NCBI GenBank assembly: GCA_027484105.1
Contig: JAIXUG010000004.1
Coordinates: forward strand, 124,001 to 188,000
Direction of reading: 5' to 3'
DNA length: 64,000 nucleotides
Origin: Comamonadaceae bacterium
GTDB taxonomy: Bacteria > Pseudomonadota > Gammaproteobacteria > Burkholderiales > Burkholderiaceae_C
Under the pieces are notes generated by a model. It made no database searches. It was not told the origin of the DNA and saw only the letters and a program-made list of their open reading frames with translations. Shown here piece after piece: positions 47,118 through 57,394 of this stretch (within the stretch, counting starts at the first letter, position 1; each line of letters opens with the position of its first letter). Made by a program: the position numbers and the translations under genes.

Positions 47118-48263
47118 TTGTCAGAGCCGCAGGCGGCCCCCACGGCCGATCGCTCTTGGTTGCTGGAGGCCTTCAAGGGCTTGGGCTGTTTGCTGATTGT
47201 GGTGCACCACCTGGCCTTTTATGGCCCGATGGCCGATGTGGTGGCGCAATCATGGCCCTGCTTGATCGCCTGGTTGGACGCACATGGGCGCCTGGCGGTG
47301 CAGGTTTTTCTCGTCTGCGGCGGCTACCTCACGGCCAACAGCCTGGCCAAGCTGGGCACTTTGTCCCCGCTGCAATGCTGTCGCCTGGGGCTCAAACGCT
47401 ACCTGCGGCTGGCCGTGCCATTGCTGGCGGCCTTGAGTCTGACGGTGGTGGTGACAGAGCTGCTTCGCCCCATTTTTGACCACGATTCTTTGTCGCCTCC
47501 ACCTGAGTTGGGCCAAGCGCTGGCGCATGTTTTTTTGCTGCAGCATGTGTGGGGGATGGACGGGCTGTCAGCGGGCGTTTGGTATGTGGCCGTCGATGTG
47601 CAATTGTTCATGTCGGCCGTGCTGTTGACCTGGCTGGCACAACAGGTGAACACGCGTTGGCCTGCTTTGTCGCAGCGCCGATGGCTTGAATGGTGGTGGT
47701 ACGTCCTGGTCGCTGTCTCCTGGTGGTGGTGGAACCGTCACCCCGAGTTGGACGACTGGAACCTGTATTTCTTGGGGGCTTACGGCTTGGGTTGCTTGGC
47801 GCATGCCTCCCGTCAGGGCCATCACCGTGCGCTGCACATGGGTGCCCTGTTGCTCTTGTGTGCCGTGGCTTGGCACCTGGAGCCCCGCTGGCAAGTGGTG
47901 ACAGCTTGTTCGGTCGCCATCTGCCTGGCCGCGGCCCCGGCAAGTTGCTTGTCTGGTCAAGCCCTGACCGTCGGCCCTTTGCGGGCCCTGGTGAGCTGGT
48001 TATCGCAGATTTCGTACAGTGTTTTCGTGGTGCATTTTGTGGTCAGTCTGGTGGTCAATGCACTCGTGAGCCACTGGTGGCCAGCCGATTTGACGGCCAA
48101 TGCTTGGGGCATGATGGCGTCGGTCGGCCTGTCCATCCTGGCGGGGTCCACACTCCACGCACAAGTGGAAAGACCCATGGCGACGGGCCGCCGCTGGGTC
48201 TTTTGGGCAGCGTGTTTCATGGCCAGCGCCGTGCTGGCCATGCAGCTCAAACAGATGCTTTGA
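47118..48263 (+). CDS. Membrane acyltransferase family 3 protein
   Basis: This is a 381-residue inner-membrane protein with about ten hydrophobic segments. LLEAFKGLGCLLIVVHHLAFYG contains the conserved HH pair near the start, as in family 3 acyltransferases that modify surface sugars. The reading begins with TTG at 47118, 17 bp after the nitronate monooxygenase stop, and there is no strong ribosome site. The C-terminus overlaps the 3' end of cphA by 17 bp on the opposite strand. Confidence 0.82.
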   Translation: MSEPQAAPTADRSWLLEAFKGLGCLLIVVHHLAFYGPMADVVAQSWPCLIAWLDAHGRLAVQVFLVCGGYLTANSLAKLGTLSPLQCCRLGLKRYLRLAVPLLAALSLTVVVTELLRPIFDHDSLSPPPELGQALAHVFLLQHVWGMDGLSAGVWYVAVDVQLFMSAVLLTWLAQQVNTRWPALSQRRWLEWWWYVLVAVSWWWWNRHPELDDWNLYFLGAYGLGCLAHASRQGHHRALHMGALLLLCAVAWHLEPRWQVVTACSVAICLAAAPASCLSGQALTVGPLRALVSWLSQISYSVFVVHFVVSLVVNALVSHWWPADLTANAWGMMASVGLSILAGSTLHAQVERPMATGRRWVFWAACFMASAVLAMQLKQML

Positions 48264-50817
48264 TCTGGGCGGTGATGTAGGCCAGTGCCTCTTCGACCTG
48301 GTCGATCAGGATCAGGCACAGATCACCAGGCGACAAGCGTGACAAAGCCACATCGATGGCATTGAACTCACCTTGGATGTCCTGCACATGGGTGGTGCGA
48401 GGCGCATCCTGCAAGCCTTGTCGCAACAAACCAATGACCTCGCCATCGGCACGACCGCGCTGACAAGCATCTTGGTACAGCAGCACCTCATCGAAGGCTT
48501 TGCCCAGAATATGGGTTTGGTCCCGGATGTCCTGATCGCGTCGGTCTCCTGCGCCACTGATCACCACAATGCGTTTGTGGGCAGGCATGTTGTCGACCGC
48601 CTGCACCAAGGCTTGTATGGCGTCCGGGTTGTGCCCGTAGTCGGCAATCAGGGTGGCGCCCCGGTAGTCGAACACGTTGAAGCGGCCAGGCACACCCTGA
48701 ATGTCGCTGACAAAGGTGGACAGGCCATTGGCGATGACCGCCCAGGGCACATCCACGGCCCAGGCGGCCCCAACCGCAGCCAGCACGTTTTCTGTTTGAA
48801 AGCCGATCTGGCCGTTTCGTGTCAAGGGGACTTGGCTCAAGGGGATGCGGTGCATCTGCTGCCCTTTTTGAGCCACCAAATCTCCGTTGTCCAAATAGAC
48901 CACGCGCTTGCCTTGGGCGCGGTGAGTGGCCAGCACGGGTTGGTTCACATCCAGGGCAAAGAAGGTCACATCGCCAGGACAGTGGCGGCCCATGGCGGCA
49001 ACAGCCGGGTCGTTGGCGTTGAGCACGGCCATGCCGCTGGGTTCCACGTTGAGCACGATGACCCGCTTGACGACGGTCAGGTCTTCGAGGGTGGTGATGT
49101 AGTTCAAGCCCAAATGGTCACCCGTGCCCAGGTTGGTCACCACCGCCACTTGGCATCGGTCAAAGGCCAGACCTTCGCGCAGCAGGCCGCCACGCGCGGT
49201 CTCAAAAACAGCCGCATCCGTTTCGGGGTGCATCAGCACGTTGCGGGCGCTGCGGGGGCCGCTGCAATCGCCCGAGTCGGTTTGATGTCCGTTGACATAC
49301 ACACCGTCGGTGTTGGTCATGCCCACACGCAGGCCTTGGGCGCGCATGAGGTGCGCAATCAAACGGACGGTGGTGGTTTTGCCATTGGTGCCGGTCACGG
49401 CAATGATGGGGACTCGTCCATGGTCACCTGAGGCATACATGTGCTCAATGACCGCTTTGCCCACGTCCCGCCCTTTGCCATACGATGGGCTGATGTGCAT
49501 GCGCAGACCGGGTGCCGCATTGACTTCCACAATGCCGCCGTTTTGCTCTTCGAGGGGGCGAAGGATGGATTCGCACACCACGTCAACGCCACAAATGTCG
49601 AGGCCCACCATTTGGGCGGCTTCGATGGCACGGCGGGCCACTTCCGGATGAACGTCATCGGTCACATCGGTGGCCGTGCCACCGGTGGACAGGTTGGCGT
49701 TGTTGCGCAGCAAAACCCGGCGACCCTTGACCGGGATGGACTCGGGTTGCAGGTCTTGCTCGTGCAAGCGGGCGATGGCAATGTCATCGAAGCGGATCTT
49801 GGTCAGCGAGGTGGCATGGCCGTCGCCGCGGCGCGGGTCGGCGTTGACCAGGTCCACCAACTGGCGCACCGTGTGTTTGCCGTCGCCCACCACCAGAGGG
49901 GGCTCTCGACGAGAAGCAGCCACCAGTTTGTCGCCCACCACCAACAGTCGGTAGTCATGGCCTGGGAGAAATTTTTCGACCATCACCACCCCGTAGCGCA
50001 GGGCCGCGGCATAGGCTTTGTCAAAAGCGGAGCGTTCGGAAATGTTGACCGAGACCCCTTTGCCTTGGTTGCCGTCCTGGGGTTTGACCACCACGGGCAA
50101 ACCAATTTCATGGGCAATTTTCCAGGCGTGCTCCAGACTGGTGGCCGGTTTCCCCATCGGCACCGGCACGCCCACTGCGTGCAGCAGACTTTTGGTCAAA
50201 GCTTTGTCTTGGGCAATGGACTCGGCAATCGCACTGGTGGTGTCGGTTTCAGCCGCCTGGATGCGGCGTTGCTTGGAACCCCAGCCAAACTGCACCATGC
50301 TGCCATCGGTCAAGCGTCGGACCGGAATGCCACGGGCCATGGCCGCGTCCACGATGGCGGCTGTAGATGGGCCCAAACGCACGTCTTCGTCCAATTCGTG
50401 CAGGTGAGCGATGGATGCTTCGAGATCAAAACCCATGCCCGAGATGGCGGCATGGCACAGCTTTTCGGCCAGCTCCAGGGCTTTTCGGCCCACGGTTTCT
50501 TCCGAGTATTCGACCACGACCTGGTAGACGCCAGGCTCTTCAGTGGGGGTGGTCCTGCTGAATGAGACGGGGCAGCCCGCCTGGATTTGAAGACCCAAGG
50601 TGACTTTTTCCAAGGCGTGCGCCAAGGTCACAGAAAGTCCGGGGCGCAGGGCATCGAACGGCCCGACCTCGGGAAAGATGCGACGAAGGTGTTGCTCTGT
50701 GGGGTGCTGGGGGCTGAGGCCTTGTTCATCTGCGCTGCAGGTGACGATGGCTTCTATGGCTGTATGGCGGCTCCAGAGGTTGGGGCCACGCAAAGCGCGG
50801 ATTCGTGACACTTCCAT
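48247..50817 (-). CDS. cphA: Cyanophycin synthetase CphA
   Basis: This cytoplasmic enzyme makes cyanophycin (multi-L-arginyl-poly-L-aspartate) by alternately adding Asp and Arg with ATP. The 856 residues have an N-terminal domain (1-160), an ATP-grasp domain (about 215-470; VVVKPQDGNQGKGVSV, EVNAAPGLRMH) and a Mur-ligase-like C-terminal domain with an intact P-loop (VTGTNGKTTT, about 474-483) and HETDA-type later motifs. It lies 33 bp downstream of cphA'. No cyanophycinase gene is in the window. Confidence 0.95.
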   Translation of the reverse strand: MEVSRIRALRGPNLWSRHTAIEAIVTCSADEQGLSPQHPTEQHLRRIFPEVGPFDALRPGLSVTLAHALEKVTLGLQIQAGCPVSFSRTTPTEEPGVYQVVVEYSEETVGRKALELAEKLCHAAISGMGFDLEASIAHLHELDEDVRLGPSTAAIVDAAMARGIPVRRLTDGSMVQFGWGSKQRRIQAAETDTTSAIAESIAQDKALTKSLLHAVGVPVPMGKPATSLEHAWKIAHEIGLPVVVKPQDGNQGKGVSVNISERSAFDKAYAAALRYGVVMVEKFLPGHDYRLLVVGDKLVAASRREPPLVVGDGKHTVRQLVDLVNADPRRGDGHATSLTKIRFDDIAIARLHEQDLQPESIPVKGRRVLLRNNANLSTGGTATDVTDDVHPEVARRAIEAAQMVGLDICGVDVVCESILRPLEEQNGGIVEVNAAPGLRMHISPSYGKGRDVGKAVIEHMYASGDHGRVPIIAVTGTNGKTTTVRLIAHLMRAQGLRVGMTNTDGVYVNGHQTDSGDCSGPRSARNVLMHPETDAAVFETARGGLLREGLAFDRCQVAVVTNLGTGDHLGLNYITTLEDLTVVKRVIVLNVEPSGMAVLNANDPAVAAMGRHCPGDVTFFALDVNQPVLATHRAQGKRVVYLDNGDLVAQKGQQMHRIPLSQVPLTRNGQIGFQTENVLAAVGAAWAVDVPWAVIANGLSTFVSDIQGVPGRFNVFDYRGATLIADYGHNPDAIQALVQAVDNMPAHKRIVVISGAGDRRDQDIRDQTHILGKAFDEVLLYQDACQRGRADGEVIGLLRQGLQDAPRTTHVQDIQGEFNAIDVALSRLSPGDLCLILIDQVEEALAYITAQIKASV

Positions 50818-50850: not shown

Positions 50851-53022
50851 TCAGGCTGCCGAAGTTTGACCGTAGCTTTTGATGCCAGCACGGATCAGTT
50901 CCGCATCCATGCCCAAAGCCCATGCGGCGCAAGCAGCGACGAGCATGTCTTCGGTGGTGAGCAAATGGTTCTTGATCAGCCGCGCCACACCAGGGCGTTG
51001 GAGGGACAGCACAGATTGCTCAGACTGGCCTTCGGTCAGCATCAATTGACCATCGCGCCAAAAACCCACGCGACCCCCTTCTGCCTTGTGAGCCTGTAAA
51101 AGGGGCTCCGCTTCAGCCTCAGCATACAGAATCACCCCGCCATCGCAGTACTGCGCGAGATCGGCGACGGCTTCATCTGCAGCATGGAGCACCGCAAATC
51201 CAGTGGGCAACACCAGATCGATCTGGGTGCGAATGTAGCTGGGGATTTTTTCATCGGGCCCCGGGTACAAATCTTCCAGCGGCGCTGCTTTGGGCATGCG
51301 GGTCACAATGCCAACTTGACAACGGTCGTAGGCCAAGCCTTGGGTGAGAAGGTGGCGTGCATCGCTTTCAAAAACGGCGGCTTCCACAGACCGGTTGACC
51401 AGCAAACGCTCGGCCTGGTCAAAATCCATCGCATTGCCTTTGAACAGGCAGCGCTGGTTCGCAAACAAGCCTTCAGCGCAAGCCAGGCCTGTGAAATGGC
51501 CTTGCAAATGCAAGAGCCAGGCCATCAGCTTGGCGATGCGGGTGGTGTCCCCATCGCCCATCAGGCCGACCACTGGGATGCGTCCTGTCTCTGTTTGCGG
51601 AATCAGGTGTTCGGCAATGGCTTGTCCGACCAGTCGGGGTTGCCCTTCAGCAGGGTTGAGGTGCATCAGCAAGCTCGGACCGGCATTGACTTCGACCACC
51701 ACGCCCTGCGTGCCCAAAGGTTGGCCAATGTCCTTGGCCACCACGTCAACGCCGGCAATGTCGAGGCCCACCACGCGTGCAGCCAAGACCGCTTGGGCCA
51801 CCACCTCCGGGTGCACCTCGTCGGTGATGTCGGTGGTCATGTTGCCGGTGCGTTTGACCAACACCGATTGCCCTACAGCAGGCACGCTGTCGACGGTCAT
51901 GCCTTGGCGAGCGAGTTCCAGCACTTCTGGGCTGTTGTCTGCCAAGACCACCAATTCCAGGGGCAAGTTGCCCACGCTGCCGCGACGGGGGTCTGAGTTG
52001 ATTTGGAGCTCTACCAGTTCGCGCACAGTGTGTTGGCCATCGCCTGTGACGCTCGCACCTTCCCCGCGGCATGCGGCAATCATGCGATCGCCCACCACCA
52101 GCAAACGGTGTTCAGAGCCACGAACAAATCGCTCAACGATGACATCACGGCCTTGGGCCAAGGCGATGTCGTAGGCGGTTTCGATCTCGTTTTGGGTGCT
52201 CAGGTCAAGTGACACCCCGCGTGCGCGGTTGCCATTGCTGGGCTTGACACAAACGGGCAGGCCGATTTCTTGTGCCGCCGCCCAGGCTGCGGCCGGGCTG
52301 TCCACCACCTGACCTTCTGGGACAGGCACACCACACATTGCCAAGAGTTTTTTGGTCAGGTCCTTGTCTCTGGAAATGCCTTCGGCGATGGCACTGGTGC
52401 GGTCGGTCTCGGCGGTCCAGATGCGGCGCTGCTTCACGCCGTGCCCCAGTTGCACCAGGTTGCCAACATTCAGACGGATGAATGGCACACGGCGCTCATA
52501 AGCTGCCTCCACGATGCTGGAGGTGCTGGGTCCTACATGCAAAGTGTCGACCATCAACGCCAGTTGGGCCACAGTGGCCTGCACATTGAAAGGGGTGTCG
52601 TGGATGGCGGCCAGGATCAATTCCCGGGCCATTTCAAGAGAGGCTCGGCCCACGGTTTCGTTGTCGGTCCGGATCACTACCTTGTAGACGCCACGGGGGC
52701 CCGCTTCGCGCGCCTTGCCAAAACCCATGGGCATGCCGGCCAAGGTTTGAAGTTCGAGACTGACATGCTCCAGGATGTGGCCCGCCCACGTGCCCGTGTC
52801 CAGGCGTTGGAAAAAGCCGCCCCGCACACCCGGTGTGCAGCGGTGTTCGATCATTTGAGGCAACCAGGCTTTGACGCGGTCATTGAAGCCAGGCAAAAGG
52901 TTGGAAGGGAAATCTTCCAGCTCCCCGATGTCGATCAGGGCCTCCATCACCGAACGGTAGGTCCAGATGTTGGGCCCGCGCAAATAGGTCATGCGCAGGA
53001 ATTCGATGTTTTTAGGACTCAT
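50851..53022 (-). CDS. Second cyanophycin synthetase-like protein (CphA') with degenerate Mur-ligase P-loop
   Basis: This is a 723-residue homologue of the downstream cphA. Its N-terminal domain and ATP-grasp domain (VCVKPSNGNRARGVSL, EVNAGPSLLMH) are intact. In the Mur-ligase domain the P-loop GTNGKTT is replaced by LMGDGDTT (about 487-494), so the catalytic lysine is lost, and the C-terminus is shortened. It should not perform arginine addition as CphA does. It may assist CphA, prime the polymer, or use dipeptides as cyanobacterial CphA2 does. Start 53022 is chosen; ATG 52992 is an alternative. Confidence 0.9.
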   Translation of the reverse strand: MSPKNIEFLRMTYLRGPNIWTYRSVMEALIDIGELEDFPSNLLPGFNDRVKAWLPQMIEHRCTPGVRGGFFQRLDTGTWAGHILEHVSLELQTLAGMPMGFGKAREAGPRGVYKVVIRTDNETVGRASLEMARELILAAIHDTPFNVQATVAQLALMVDTLHVGPSTSSIVEAAYERRVPFIRLNVGNLVQLGHGVKQRRIWTAETDRTSAIAEGISRDKDLTKKLLAMCGVPVPEGQVVDSPAAAWAAAQEIGLPVCVKPSNGNRARGVSLDLSTQNEIETAYDIALAQGRDVIVERFVRGSEHRLLVVGDRMIAACRGEGASVTGDGQHTVRELVELQINSDPRRGSVGNLPLELVVLADNSPEVLELARQGMTVDSVPAVGQSVLVKRTGNMTTDITDEVHPEVVAQAVLAARVVGLDIAGVDVVAKDIGQPLGTQGVVVEVNAGPSLLMHLNPAEGQPRLVGQAIAEHLIPQTETGRIPVVGLMGDGDTTRIAKLMAWLLHLQGHFTGLACAEGLFANQRCLFKGNAMDFDQAERLLVNRSVEAAVFESDARHLLTQGLAYDRCQVGIVTRMPKAAPLEDLYPGPDEKIPSYIRTQIDLVLPTGFAVLHAADEAVADLAQYCDGGVILYAEAEAEPLLQAHKAEGGRVGFWRDGQLMLTEGQSEQSVLSLQRPGVARLIKNHLLTTEDMLVAACAAWALGMDAELIRAGIKSYGQTSAA

Positions 53023-53194
53023 GAGGGCTTGGGGTGCGGCGATACAATGAACCGCCAATTGTGGCATTGGCTAGCCCGTGCTTGGAATGATCAGGATTCG
53101 AATGCAACATGGATTGTCTACTTCAAGCAGTTGGCCAAACAAACGGTTTACTTTCTCGTGAAGCGTCACCGGCGTTTCGGGCACATTTCAGTTC

Positions 53195-55495
53195 ATGGTC
53201 ATGATTTCAACAACTGCTTCGGTTTTGTCGCTTCCGGGAATTGCGGAGGTTTGGCAAGCGGAAGTTCAAGCCATTCTGCGACCCCAAGAAAACGTTTTGG
53301 CAGGGTTGGAGGTTGACCTTGACGGCAAATTGTTTTTTGCCAAAAGTCTGGTGATTTTGACCGATCAAAGGGTGGTCCATTGCGCAGGCCCGGAAAAAAG
53401 CGTTTTGAGCTGGCCTTTGCAGGCCGATATGGGCCTGAAACTCAGCGACCATGCGGGTGTCGGAACCTTGGCCCTGAGTTCGTCAACGGGTCAATTGGCG
53501 GTGTGGCGTTTCACCTTGGGCTTGCAGCCGTCAGCGGCTCGCTGGGCCAGTCAATTCGAATACCGCAAGGGCCTGCTTTCGGGTGATGGCGTCCCCCTGC
53601 AAAAAAATCCCACACTGGCCCTGTGCCCGGTTTGCCAAGCGGTCATGCGTGAAGACGATGACGAATGTCCAAGCTGTGGCCGTGAAGATCTGACTCCGCC
53701 TTCGACCTGGACCCTGTTGAAACTGTGGCGCTTTGCCAAACCCTACAAAAATTCATTGTTTGCAGGCTTTGTGTTGACTTTGGCCTCCACCGCAGCCACT
53801 TTGGTGCCCCCTTACCTGACCATGCCCCTGATGGACGAGGTGCTCATTCCTTACCAAAACGGCGTGGCCATCGATTCGGGCCTGGTTTCGCTGTATTTGT
53901 TGGGTTTGTTTGGCGCGGCCTTGCTGGCATGGGTCTTGGGTTGGGCCAAGACCTATATCCTGGCTTTGGTGTCAGAGCGCATTGGCGCTGATCTGCGCAC
54001 CACCACCTACGACCATTTGCTGAACTTGTCCCTGGAGTATTTTGGCGACCGTCGAACCGGTGACCTGATTGCGCGCATCGGCAACGAAACCGACCGGATC
54101 AATGTGTTTTTGTCGCTGCATCTGCTGGATTTTGCAACCGACGTGTTGATGATCCTGATGACCGCGATCATCCTTTTCACCATCAACCCGACCTTGGCGT
54201 TGGTGACCTTGCTGCCGCTGCCTTTCATCGCTTGGTTGATTCACCTGGTGCGCGAACGTCTGCGTACCGGGTTCGAAAAAATCGACCGCGTCTGGGCCGA
54301 GGTCACCAATGTGCTGGCCGACACCATCCCCGGCATCCGGGTGGTCAAGGCCTTTGCACAAGAAGACCGCGAGTCAAAACGGTTCCGGGATTCCAACCAG
54401 CACAACCTGATGGTCAATGACCGATTGAACCGGGTGTGGGCCTTGTTTTCACCCACGGTCACCCTGATGACCGAAGTGGGATTGCTGGTGGTGTGGGGCT
54501 TTGGCATTTGGCTGGTGTCGAAAGACCAGATCACGGTGGGGGTGTTGACGGCTTTTCTGGCCTACATCGGTCGTTTTTACGGTCGCCTGGACACCATGAG
54601 CCGCATCGTTTCGCACACCCAAAAAGCGGCTTCTGGCGCCAAGCGCATTTTTGACATCCTGGACCATGTCTCCAGCGTGCCCGAGCCGGTCAATCCCGTG
54701 GCCTTGCCCAGCCGTGTGCAAGGCCGCATCACGGTTCGCGAAGCCGGTTTCCGTTATGGCAATCGGGCGGTCATTCGTCAATTGAATCTGGACATCTTGC
54801 CGGGGCAGATGATTGGCCTGGTCGGGCACAGTGGCTCCGGCAAAAGCACCTTGGTCAACCTGATTTGTCGTTTCTATGATGTGACCGATGGATCGATCGA
54901 ATTGGATGGCACGGACATTCGGCAACTGAAAATCGCCGATTACCGCAGCCAGATTGGTTTGGTTTTGCAGGAGCCGTTCCTGTTCTTCGGCACCATCGCG
55001 GACAACATCGCCTATGGAAAACCCGGAGCCACCCGTGAAGAGATCGTTGCTGCCGCACGGGCCGCGCACGCCCACGAGTTCATCATGCGCATGCCGCAAG
55101 CCTATGACTCTTTGGTGGGCGAGCGTGGTCAAGGCCTCTCAGGCGGGGAGCGTCAGCGCATCTCCATTGCGCGTGCATTGCTGATCAATCCCCGGATTCT
55201 GATTCTGGATGAAGCCACGTCGGCCGTGGACACCGAGACCGAGAAGGAAATCCAACGCGCTTTGGACAACCTGGTTCGGGGACGAACCACGATCGCGATT
55301 GCGCACAGATTGTCCACTTTGCGCAAAGCCGATCGTTTGGTCGTGATGGACAAAGGTGAGGTGGTGGAAGAGGGCTCGCATGATGAATTGATTGCAGCGC
55401 AGGGCGCCTATTGGCGTCTGTATGAAGCGCAGCAACGACAGGCAGAGGCCGACACGGTCTTGGGTGGCGGGTTCGAACAGAAGGCACTGGCATGA
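53195..55495 (+). CDS. ABC exporter-type half transporter with N-terminal soluble domain and zinc ribbon (cyanophycin-associated)
   Basis: This is a 766-residue inner-membrane protein with three parts. Residues 1-135 form a soluble, mostly beta domain of unknown type. Residues 144-161 form a CxxC-x10-CxxC zinc ribbon (C144, C147, C158, C161). Residues about 180-470 are a six-helix ABC membrane domain, followed by a nucleotide-binding domain with HSGSGKST, LSGGERQR and ILDEATSAVD. It is divergent from cphA' (172 bp) and overlaps the DUF1854 gene by 4 bp. The family is known in annotation as cyanophycin-metabolism-associated; the substrate is not established to my knowledge. Confidence 0.9.
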   Translation: MVMISTTASVLSLPGIAEVWQAEVQAILRPQENVLAGLEVDLDGKLFFAKSLVILTDQRVVHCAGPEKSVLSWPLQADMGLKLSDHAGVGTLALSSSTGQLAVWRFTLGLQPSAARWASQFEYRKGLLSGDGVPLQKNPTLALCPVCQAVMREDDDECPSCGREDLTPPSTWTLLKLWRFAKPYKNSLFAGFVLTLASTAATLVPPYLTMPLMDEVLIPYQNGVAIDSGLVSLYLLGLFGAALLAWVLGWAKTYILALVSERIGADLRTTTYDHLLNLSLEYFGDRRTGDLIARIGNETDRINVFLSLHLLDFATDVLMILMTAIILFTINPTLALVTLLPLPFIAWLIHLVRERLRTGFEKIDRVWAEVTNVLADTIPGIRVVKAFAQEDRESKRFRDSNQHNLMVNDRLNRVWALFSPTVTLMTEVGLLVVWGFGIWLVSKDQITVGVLTAFLAYIGRFYGRLDTMSRIVSHTQKAASGAKRIFDILDHVSSVPEPVNPVALPSRVQGRITVREAGFRYGNRAVIRQLNLDILPGQMIGLVGHSGSGKSTLVNLICRFYDVTDGSIELDGTDIRQLKIADYRSQIGLVLQEPFLFFGTIADNIAYGKPGATREEIVAAARAAHAHEFIMRMPQAYDSLVGERGQGLSGGERQRISIARALLINPRILILDEATSAVDTETEKEIQRALDNLVRGRTTIAIAHRLSTLRKADRLVVMDKGEVVEEGSHDELIAAQGAYWRLYEAQQRQAEADTVLGGGFEQKALA

Positions 55496-55956
55496 ACACC
55501 TTTGATTTGCAGCGCGATGCTTTTGGCCATTGGGTTTTGACGATGCCCGACGGCACCCGCCACGCGCCCGTCACTGCCTTGCGCTCTTACCCCGTGACTG
55601 CGCCCGACGCAGGGGTGGCCTTGATGGATGCCGAAGGCCATGAGTTGTACTGGGTTGATGCCTTGTCCGATTTGCCCGATAACTTGCGACAGCGCGTGGT
55701 CCAAGCCTTGTCGGAGCGCGAATTTTTACCCGTCATTCATCGGCTGGAAAGTGTCAGCAGCTTTGCCACACCCAGCACCTGGACAGTGTTGACCGATCGC
55801 GGCACGGCCCATTTTTTACTCAAAGGCGAAGAGGACATTCGGCGCCTGACAGGCACAGTCTTGTTGATCAACGACGCCGATGGCGTGCAATACATGATCC
55901 GCGACTTGGCCACCATGGACAAACACTCGCGCAAATTGCTGGACCGGTTCCTCTGA
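55492..55956 (+). CDS. DUF1854 family protein (cyanophycin-associated)
   Basis: This is a 154-residue, apparently cytoplasmic protein of unknown function, lacking signal or membrane segments. LTDRGTAHFLLKGEEDIRRL and the closing LATMDKHSRKLLDRFL are features of the DUF1854 family. Its start overlaps the ABC transporter stop (ATGA), so the two are made together and may form a complex. Confidence 0.88.
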   Translation: MNTFDLQRDAFGHWVLTMPDGTRHAPVTALRSYPVTAPDAGVALMDAEGHELYWVDALSDLPDNLRQRVVQALSEREFLPVIHRLESVSSFATPSTWTVLTDRGTAHFLLKGEEDIRRLTGTVLLINDADGVQYMIRDLATMDKHSRKLLDRFL

Positions 55957-55962
55957 ATCCTT

Positions 55963-57327
55963 TCAAAGTGGCCAGACCGAGCCATGCTCGGGCACCAGGG
56001 CGCGCCATTTGATTTCATGCTCAATGCGCTGGCGCAGTATGTCAGACGCTTCGCGCTCGCCGTGCACCACATACACCTGACCCGGTGCACTGGGCATTTT
56101 GTGCAGCCAGCTGATCAGCTGGTTGCCGTCGGCATGGGCCGAGGCCGATTCAATTTGCACGACCTCGGCGCGAACCGCCACGTCCTGCGCATGGATGCGG
56201 ATGGTGCTGTGCCCATTGGCCAGTGAGGCGCCGCGTGTCCCGGGCGCCTGATAACCCGTCAGGATGATGAGGTTGCGATGGTCTCCAGCGTATTGCGCGA
56301 GGTGGTGCAACACCCGTCCACCCGTGGCCATGCCACTGGCTGCCAGGATGACCATGGGGCCGTGCCGTTTGGCCAAGGACTTCGATTGCTCGGGTGTTTC
56401 CAGCATGGTTGCCACATGGTCCATGTTGCGCACCTCTTGCACCCCCAGGCGATGCTCGCCCAGGTGTCGCTCATAGAGGGCGGTGGTGTGGATTGCCATG
56501 GGACTGTCCAGGAAAATCGGCAAGCTCTTGGGGATTTCTCCTGCCGCCTTGAGTTGCGCGATGGTGTGCAGCACAGCCTGGGCCCGTCCCACGGCAAACA
56601 CCGGCACCACAGCCACGCCGCCGCGAGCTGCCAATTTTTTCAGAAGCGGCCCAAGTTCCTCAAACAATTTTTCCTTGGGGTGTTGGCGGTCGCCATAAGT
56701 GGATTCGATCAAGACCGTGTCGGCCTGAGGCGGTGGCTCGGGTGGGTTCATCAGGGGGTCATCGGGGCGGCCCAAATCGCCAGAAAACAGCACCCGCCGA
56801 CCGCCCACATCCAACAACAAACTGGCGGCGCCCAAAATGTGCCCGGCGGGCTGAAATCGCGCTTTCCAGCCGCGGATGGGCTCGAACCACTGGCTTTGTT
56901 TTTCGGCATGCAAATGCCGCAGGCTCTGGATGGCCTCTTGCTTGGTGTACAGCGGCAGGGCCGGAGCGTGTTTAGAAAAGCCGTGCCGGTTGGCAAAAAA
57001 TGCGTCTTCTTCCTGGATGTGCCCGCTGTCGGGCAACAAGATGCTGGCCAGATCGCAAGTGGCGGAGGTGGCATGCACCCGACCCCGAAATCCGTTTTTC
57101 ACCAACAAGGGCAAGTAACCGCTGTGGTCCAGGTGCGCATGGGTCAGCACCACCGCATCGATTCGCGATGGGTTGGCGGGCAGGGGGCTCCAGTTGCGCA
57201 GACGCAGTTGTTTGTAGCCCTGAAACAAGCCGCAGTCGACCAGAAGCCGCCTCTGCTTGTGCTCGATCAGGTATTTGGAGCCGGTGACGGTGTCGGCCCC
57301 GCCGAGGAAAGTGATGGTGGCGCTCAT
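55963..57327 (-). CDS. MBL-fold beta-CASP RNA-processing-type hydrolase
   Basis: This is a probable zinc-dependent RNase or phosphodiesterase. The 454-residue protein has an intact metallo-beta-lactamase motif (THAHLDHSGYLPLL), a beta-CASP region and ASGMATGGRVLHHL plus a C-terminal HADGNQLISWL. It resembles the archaeal CPSF-like or YSH1-type branch rather than RNase J. The start at 57327 is chosen (MSATITFLGGADTVTGS). It lies downstream of dnaJ and converges with the DUF1854 gene. Confidence 0.87.
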   Translation of the reverse strand: MSATITFLGGADTVTGSKYLIEHKQRRLLVDCGLFQGYKQLRLRNWSPLPANPSRIDAVVLTHAHLDHSGYLPLLVKNGFRGRVHATSATCDLASILLPDSGHIQEEDAFFANRHGFSKHAPALPLYTKQEAIQSLRHLHAEKQSQWFEPIRGWKARFQPAGHILGAASLLLDVGGRRVLFSGDLGRPDDPLMNPPEPPPQADTVLIESTYGDRQHPKEKLFEELGPLLKKLAARGGVAVVPVFAVGRAQAVLHTIAQLKAAGEIPKSLPIFLDSPMAIHTTALYERHLGEHRLGVQEVRNMDHVATMLETPEQSKSLAKRHGPMVILAASGMATGGRVLHHLAQYAGDHRNLIILTGYQAPGTRGASLANGHSTIRIHAQDVAVRAEVVQIESASAHADGNQLISWLHKMPSAPGQVYVVHGEREASDILRQRIEHEIKWRALVPEHGSVWPL

Positions 57328-57394
57328 GCCGCCATGGTCACGCCAATGGGGGGCCTTGGGTTTGACGGGGGTCAAGGAAGCCGTCGGCCTGAGA

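Follow-up and report, generated by a model that had tools for sequence, protein, structure and literature searches.

A locus for cyanophycin-type polymers was analysed in a Comamonadaceae bacterium (GenBank assembly GCA_027484105.1) with a genome of 3.1 Mb; the window is the whole stretch of 64,000 nucleotides taken from contig JAIXUG010000004.1. The locus consists of two cyanophycin synthetase genes, cphA and cphA', and a gene pair encoding an ATP-binding cassette (ABC) half-transporter and a DUF1854 protein, whose closest named relatives are from Limnohabitans and other Comamonadaceae. DUF1854 co-occurs with a pair of cphA genes, the four genes are adjacent, the two synthetases show reciprocal loss of motifs, and the ABC protein is of ABCB type with intact motifs. 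As judged from these motifs, the active sites that CphA has lost and those that CphA' has lost are complementary, which is the new point of this study. Our best reading, which we hold tentatively, is that a split synthetase feeds a dedicated ABC exporter and that the four genes form one inherited module. The features are listed below with their positions in the window (TMD, transmembrane domain; NBD, nucleotide-binding domain).

48247..50817, minus strand: cphA; M site intact, N-domain site degenerate; NF010623 1227 bits, TIGR02068 970 bits
50851..53067, minus strand: cphA'; N-domain site intact, M-site motifs and C-terminal M lobe gone; NF010623 901 bits, TIGR02068 631 bits
53068..53194, no strand: divergent intergenic region of 127 bp; no sigma54-like site
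53195..55495, plus strand: half-ABC exporter of 766 aa, cyanophycin metabolism-associated; NF052233 1381.9 bits, TMD, NBD motifs
53195..53581, plus strand: N-terminal domain of the ABC protein, residues 1-129; seven strands and a C-terminal helix in the AlphaFold2 prediction
53624..53677, plus strand: four-cysteine zinc-ribbon-like motif C144/C147/C158/C161, a sequence motif
55492..55956, plus strand: DUF1854 protein of 154 aa; PF08909 147.7 bits, NF052234 214 bits

An earlier note on this DNA had described the same layout, and its coordinates, the divergence of cphA/cphA' from ABC-DUF1854 and the 4-bp overlap all hold; the stop codon of the ABC gene and the start codon of DUF1854 share positions 55492-55495. 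The interval 50851-55956 that it assigned to the locus spans cphA', ABC and DUF1854 and leaves cphA (48247-50817) just outside. The annotated first start codon of cphA' at 53067 may be too far upstream: the alternative is M16, with which the homologue at locus L156 agrees, whereas close relatives match already from residue 9.

CphA and CphA' have divided active sites

The synthetase SuCphA1 carries three sites in one protein (PMC9262961, cited like the other papers from part of its text). The N site, Cx19HxxEH, is an endo-cyanophycinase producing primers, the G site adds Asp (H267) and the M site adds Arg (D585/H586). Both paralogues of the window align with CphA1 (PDB 7lg5, 7wac) across the N, G and M regions, the alignment of CphA' to 7lg5 stopping at residue 722 of 879 with the M lobe missing. 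The N and M sites that SuCphA1 combines are here shared out over two proteins: CphA has GTNGKTT, GDHLG, DYGHN and GDRRD and lacks Cx19HxxEH, whereas CphA' has Cx19HxxEH at residues 77-101 and lacks the P-loop, Asp-His and C-lobe motifs of the M site. The TIGR02068 equivalog cut-off of 850 bits is passed by CphA (970) and not by CphA' (630.8), which lies above the cut-off of NF010623 (901 vs 877 bits).

For the homologues, sites were counted in 100 CphA and 107 CphA' sequences, all 207 distinct, out of 124 loci. Sequences with a coverage below 85%, or with an identity to the window below 55% (CphA) or 46% (CphA'), were left out, so that copies deviating more strongly would escape this count. 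Cys, His, Glu and His of the N site were complete in 107/107 CphA' and in 0/100 CphA, of which 87 keep the first His and 89 the Glu. Conversely, Lys, Asp and His of the M site were present in 100/100 CphA vs 1/107 CphA', and GDRRD of the C lobe in 100/100 vs 0/107. The G site deviates in both paralogues. Gln replaces the His of its GNHGRG loop (H267 in SuCphA1) in 99 of the 100 CphA. Among the 107 CphA' this His is retained in 92 and replaced by Arg in 14, as also in CphA' of the window; in 99% of CphA' a Leu takes the place of the Arg in the ..GFRMH motif.

Reciprocal losses of this kind might also reflect decay of CphA', with CphA working alone and no division of labour. CphA' is indeed the less conserved protein (54% vs 70% for CphA in Cupriavidus gilardii, 49% vs 68% in Dechloromonas) and its M lobe is missing. 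However, its N-site residues are invariant in all 107 sequences and two synthetase genes are kept in each of the 90 family genomes carrying the module (see below), which makes decay a very improbable explanation.

A tree built from 42 sequences separated CphA, CphA' and a set of eight other synthetases into one group each. The synthetase encoded next to ABC-DUF1854 at locus L184 (genome G550), in which both the N and the M motifs are intact, branched beside CphA' (98/92; root uncertain). We rejected the idea of an ancestral CphA that was single and intact, since this gene is cut off by the contig end, past which a second cphA may follow, and since G550 is 8% contaminated. DUF1854 was detected in one of the 48 genomes of the class of G550. 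The simplest reading of the sequences is that a synthetase linked to ABC/DUF1854 was duplicated and that labour was then divided between the copies.

DUF1854 occurs together with two cphA genes

The searches with DUF1854, cyanophycinase and PF18921, the N domain of the synthetase, which served as marker for cphA genes, all used a single sample of 150 genomes from the window's family. The DUF1854 equivalog was found in 90 genomes, none of which lacks cphA. PF18921 was found in 92, with two genes in each of those 90 and one in G274 and G311; the DUF1854-positive genomes and those with two PF18921 genes are identical sets. DUF1854 and PF18921 lie on one contig in 88 of the 90, with 2.8-3.4 kb between match starts, and on different contigs in two drafts. 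The Fisher value for DUF1854 and the cphA pair was 9e-40, which is no true probability because the genomes are related. DUF1854-positive genomes were found in 82 of 141 genera, suggesting that the genes were gained or lost together.

At the level of the phylum, 18 of 349 genomes carried DUF1854 and all 18 carried PF18921 (17 with at least two genes, G550 with one). PF18921 was over the cut-off in 22 genomes; G605, a 23rd, scored below it and was left out. G453, G627, G450 and G652 have a single cphA and no DUF1854. The ABC gene lies beside DUF1854 in 121 of 122 loci, the remaining one being cut by a contig end. Co-occurrence with cphA, which the earlier note had named as the support to look for, was found for DUF1854 in 90/90 family and 18/18 phylum genomes, and on these sequence comparisons a functional tie of the ABC/DUF1854 pair to cyanophycin synthesis appears well supported.

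Genome G653 has, in addition to the module (L185), two other synthetase genes 1.9 Mb away, and hence the module and another kind of synthetase can coexist in one genome. A contig titled Akkermansia muciniphila (L104) holds the entire locus with 88-93% protein identity to the window and is probably mislabelled or a contaminant.

Cyanophycinase is not part of the locus

The whole genome of the window has no match to the cyanophycinase model TIGR02069 at E <= 1. The earlier claim that no cyanophycin-degrading gene is present stands, genome-wide, for cyanophycinase, isoaspartyl dipeptidases lying outside this search; CphA', however, has the endo-cyanophycinase motif Cx19HxxEH. Among the 150 family genomes 44 matched TIGR02069 at E <= 1e-3 and 30 were over its cut-off; for the 90 module genomes the numbers were 33 and 25. 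A strong cyanophycinase (>180 bits) was present in eight module genomes and never adjoined the locus: five lie on another contig and three at 53 kb, 120 kb and 2.7 Mb from cphA. Accordingly, 82 of the 90 are without a strong cyanophycinase and 65 without one over the cut-off. The two single-cphA genomes G274 and G311 have a strong cyanophycinase 0.6 and 4.2 kb from cphA and no DUF1854. Such canonical cphA-cphB clusters, with one PF18921 gene and an adjacent cyanophycinase, have the synthetase gene in common with the locus studied here and differ from it in lacking DUF1854. A crude motif search missed the cyanophycinase copies at L063 and L064 that TIGR02069 detects.

In three module-free genomes a second gene, encoding 586-613 aa, adjoins the single cphA (L063 3957-5738, L188 4294-6135, L189 4065-5825). 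It matches part of CphA with 34-36% identity and is not counted by PF18921.

Two synthetase genes without cyanophycinase have been remarked upon in betaproteobacteria (PMC5178258, PMC5670224), and PMC5178258 proposes a different pathway of release and a function in pH balance, neither tested there. Wild-type Ralstonia eutropha has two synthetase homologues and no cyanophycin was observed in it (PMC11362209); it may carry the module, which was seen in Cupriavidus gilardii (L170).

The ABC protein and its N-terminal head

The ABC protein matches NF052233 over residues 15-755 with 1381.9 bits (curated cut-off 880), and Pfam places its TMD at 188-463 and its NBD at 528-676. The NBD is complete, with Walker A, Q-loop, signature, Walker B with the catalytic Glu, D-loop and H-loop. 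With a TMD and an NBD bearing Walker A/B, signature, D-loop and H-loop, the protein has the make-up of an ABCB-type exporter; its best solved relatives are ABCB-type exporters, and MsbA-type models match best after NF052233. MsbA, Sav1866, TM287/288 and P-glycoprotein share this TMD-NBD half-transporter plan and all the motifs looked for. Unlike these exporters, the window protein has a head predicted to be pleckstrin homology (PH)-like with a zinc ribbon, and a separate DUF1854 partner. For an ABCB-type protein export is likelier than import, although a few importers with this fold are known.

The median identity of the window protein to its homologues was 79.7% for the TMD, 81.2% for the NBD and 39.4% for the N-terminal domain. 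The half-ABC exporter of the earlier note was confirmed, as was its account of the N-terminus, where no convincing Pfam family was found and the four cysteines are present. The head ends in C144-x2-C147-x10-C158-x2-C161, to which zinc-ribbon models match weakly (E 0.006-0.04), and the four-cysteine motif occurs in 64 of 70 homologues. Prediction of the N-terminal structure, as suggested earlier, was done by AlphaFold2 with 57 sequences from the window and the loci and gave a mean predicted local distance difference test (pLDDT) score of 86.8 for residues 1-174 and of 89-98 per ten-residue block for residues 21-130. Residues 34-129 are predicted to form seven strands followed by a helix, a topology that we take to be that of a PH domain. 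A PH-like head is a lead given by this model; the bPH_3 profile matches two of the 57 members weakly (best E 0.012) and not that of the window.

The DUF1854 protein scores 214 bits with NF052234 (curated cut-off 150) and 147.7 bits with PF08909. AlphaFold2 predicts a beta-rich domain and two helices (mean pLDDT 90.0, predicted template modelling score 0.66). E51, F78, P80, W97, T101 and G104 are invariant, two cphA-free relatives included, and the cphA-linked proteins have a conserved C-terminal DRFL. No convincing sequence relatives of either the ABC N-terminal domain or DUF1854 were found in the PDB. A relationship between the head and DUF1854 was tried and found no support (hhalign probability 0.5).

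These domains could also belong to a storage system whose synthetase is docked to the membrane. In that case the ABC/DUF1854 pair would mainly be a regulator or anchor, which, for instance, senses ATP, Arg or a metal via the ribbon and the PH-like head and tethers the CphA/CphA' complex or the granule to the membrane, and CphA' would use its N site to mobilise the polymer. A PH-like domain and a zinc ribbon, as predicted here, are what one would expect of binding modules; the endo-cyanophycinase motif kept in CphA' may mean that a degrading activity is encoded; and a coarse survey of the flanks revealed no conspicuous adaptor or outer-membrane partner. However, a mere anchor would need neither the NBD motifs, all of those looked for being intact, nor a TMD about as conserved as the NBD, and wild-type R. 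eutropha, a possible carrier of the module, is reported without cyanophycin (PMC11362209). We consider docked storage conceivable and rather doubtful.

A wider ABC/DUF1854 family without cphA

PF08909 was found in 10 of 369 genomes of the class: six have cphA, G184, G001 and G043 are without PF18921, and G788, where ABC-DUF1854 lies on a 3.6-kb contig, is too short at this point to assess cphA. The complete architecture of head, ribbon, ABC and DUF1854 is present without cphA in G184 and G001, whose ABC proteins score 588 and 561 bits with NF052233, under the cut-off, and share 30% and 27% TMD identity with the window, against a median of 79.7% in the cphA-linked group. Sulfolobus acidocaldarius, one of 14 control genomes, has a match to PF08909 and none to PF18921. 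These cphA-free members indicate that the ABC/DUF1854 device is not confined to cyanophycin, the cphA-linked branch being a specialised subfamily. The earlier note had held that frequent occurrence of the pair without cphA would speak against its idea; such pairs exist in the wider family (G184, G001) and were not found in the cphA-linked subfamily. In G184 (L014 5612-9715) the pair follows a winged-helix HTH_34 regulator gene and a gene without Pfam match, with an NnrS gene nearby. G043 (L016 9444-9776) has a 110-aa DUF1854 remnant without ABC partner, apparently a decayed copy.

An ordinary lipid or drug exporter pair might merely travel with cphA/cphA'. Two observations would agree with this: members of the wider family occur without cphA, the pair of G184 following a winged-helix regulator gene, and MsbA-type models come second only to NF052233. 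Against it stand the co-occurrence of DUF1854 with cphA in 90/90 and 18/18 genomes and two gene orders in which cphA' is always adjacent where assessable. We therefore hold a chance association to be improbable.

Between residues 171 and 760 of the ABC protein, 92 positions are conserved in the cphA-linked group and differ in both cphA-free relatives, a pattern that is also expected from divergence alone; 13 of the 92 are charged and lie within residues 171-480, and R460, R464, D466 and R470 are among the 92. A small-molecule valve would be another way to use such a protein: it would export (less likely import) Arg, Asp, beta-Asp-Arg or their kin and balance the nitrogen pool, and the polymer would never cross the membrane. 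ABCB-type relatives, judged by their names, transport small molecules, lipids and peptides, and the charged R460, R464, D466 and R470, picked from the 92 positions, differ in the cphA-free L014 and L015. On the other hand, one would not expect a simple amino-acid valve to vanish whenever the cphA pair does. A valve of this type is conceivable and rather doubtful.

Gene order and neighbourhood

The 122 loci comprise 42 from family and class genomes and 80 named ones, some genomes possibly being in both sets; the 80 were those most similar to the window among 574 confirmed matches. The divergent order of the window was found in 95 loci and a co-directional order ABC-DUF1854-cphA'-cphA in 20, the latter in Dechloromonas, Azonexus, Propionivibrio, Pusillimonas, Nitrosospira and others. 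cphA' adjoins the pair in 115 of the 122; in the other seven the contig starts inside ABC or just before DUF1854. A natural ABC-DUF1854 fusion, which long open frames had suggested, was discarded, as the loci show overlapping frames and no true fusion.

The flanks were surveyed coarsely by open reading frames at 91 loci, module genes and their reading-frame shadows being set aside. No other family among the 14 largest shown exceeds 19 loci, and neither a recurrent adaptor or outer-membrane partner nor an insertion-sequence family stood out among these 14. Two DUF1854 queries gave no tblastn match in 72,556 plasmid records. Nitrogen control by sigma54 found no support, with no sigma54-like site in any of the 95 divergent intergenic regions or in that of the window. 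The recurrent ATTGTGCG is, at a guess, a minus-10 element of cphA'.

In the window, an acyltransferase_3 gene (47118-48263, plus strand) is convergent with cphA and shares 17 bp with its 3' end; its family is apparently the one flanking 19 of the 91 loci. A gene resembling beta-CASP metallo-beta-lactamase RNA nucleases (55963-57375, minus strand) adjoins DUF1854 here and in some relatives, and beyond it lie putative dnaJ, dnaK and grpE-like genes, named from the list of open reading frames.

Relation to described systems

Both proteins of the pair have names in NCBIfam: NF052233 is a 'cyanophycin metabolism-associated ABC transporter' and NF052234 a 'cyanophycin metabolism-associated DUF1854 family protein'. 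The window proteins are over both cut-offs; the model descriptions give the association and neither substrate nor mechanism. Group 1 clusters of activated-sludge taxa, with two cphA genes, an unclassified ABC transporter and no cphB, were described in 2023 (PMC10687191). They share the cphA pair and the ABC gene without cphB with our locus, and the section describing them contains neither DUF1854 nor site losses. The proposal of an undescribed system in the earlier note is too strong, as NCBIfam names both proteins and the cluster type is already in that paper. PMC10687191 also raises a composite transposon origin of the Group 1 cluster; here, DUF1854 was not found in the plasmid records, and no insertion-sequence family was among the 14 largest flanking families shown in the coarse survey. 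In the open-licence literature searched, we found no description of complementary site loss in paired CphA, no phrases on cyanophycin export or 'CphA-associated' proteins and, among 5.39 million papers, no use of the term DUF1854. As far as these searches reach, the locus is catalogued and not yet understood.

A possible export module

In the mechanism that we favour, CphA and CphA' would act together as a mixed oligomer or relay, in which the M site of CphA would add Arg and the N site of CphA' would cut the chain into short (beta-Asp-Arg)n pieces. A homodimeric ABC protein would carry the product over the inner membrane, as polymer or, likelier, as short oligomers, and the PH-like/zinc-ribbon head and DUF1854 on the cytosolic face might recruit the product or the synthetase, or gate the pump. 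The locus would then make and export a cyanophycin-type product rather than only storing it, which would fit the few strong cyanophycinases and wild-type R. eutropha, with its two synthetase homologues, being reported without cyanophycin. Also compatible is that the top 25 genes upregulated exclusively in biofilm of Variovorax paradoxus EPS include one for a cyanophycin synthetase (27.4-fold; PMC7494200), which may belong to this module.

Several observations weigh against this model. Neither fold nor gene link gives the substrate and direction of the ABC protein, and the deviation of the G site in both paralogues weakens cyanophycin itself as the product. Cyanophycinase-family matches in 25 (over the cut-off) and 33 (E <= 1e-3) of the 90 module genomes imply that storage and reuse may coexist. 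The wider family without cphA (G184, G001) suggests that the device may move or sense something general. Moreover, one of the 107 CphA' retains Lys, Asp and His of the M site, the ribbon is absent in six of the 70 homologues, the ABC gene was counted at loci and not genome-wide, and the flank survey showed no recurrent adaptor or outer-membrane partner.

A more specific form of the export model, which we put forward as an unlikely though explicit version, is that the four genes encode machinery for making and secreting a cyanophycin-type peptide. In it, CphA and CphA' would be an obligate split synthetase, one growing and decorating the chain and the other cutting it to defined lengths, and the ABC exporter with its PH-like head and DUF1854 as coupling protein would pass the pieces to the periplasm or the outside. 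If this were true, the product would be an exported one, for example a biofilm or shared-nitrogen compound, and not a granule.

The papers reporting two synthetase genes without cyanophycinase (PMC5178258, PMC5670224, PMC10687191) offer, in the parts cited, no tested explanation. The module suggests a testable answer: the two genes would be halves that complement each other, and instead of breakdown, transport may be the step that is missing. If so, nitrogen storage in activated sludge, lakes and soil would have to be read differently, the lack of polymer in wild-type R. eutropha might be explained, and a route to secreted cyanophycin for biotechnology would be at hand. Many freshwater and soil bacteria carry this fixed four-gene set, and instead of only being stored, the product may leave the cell.

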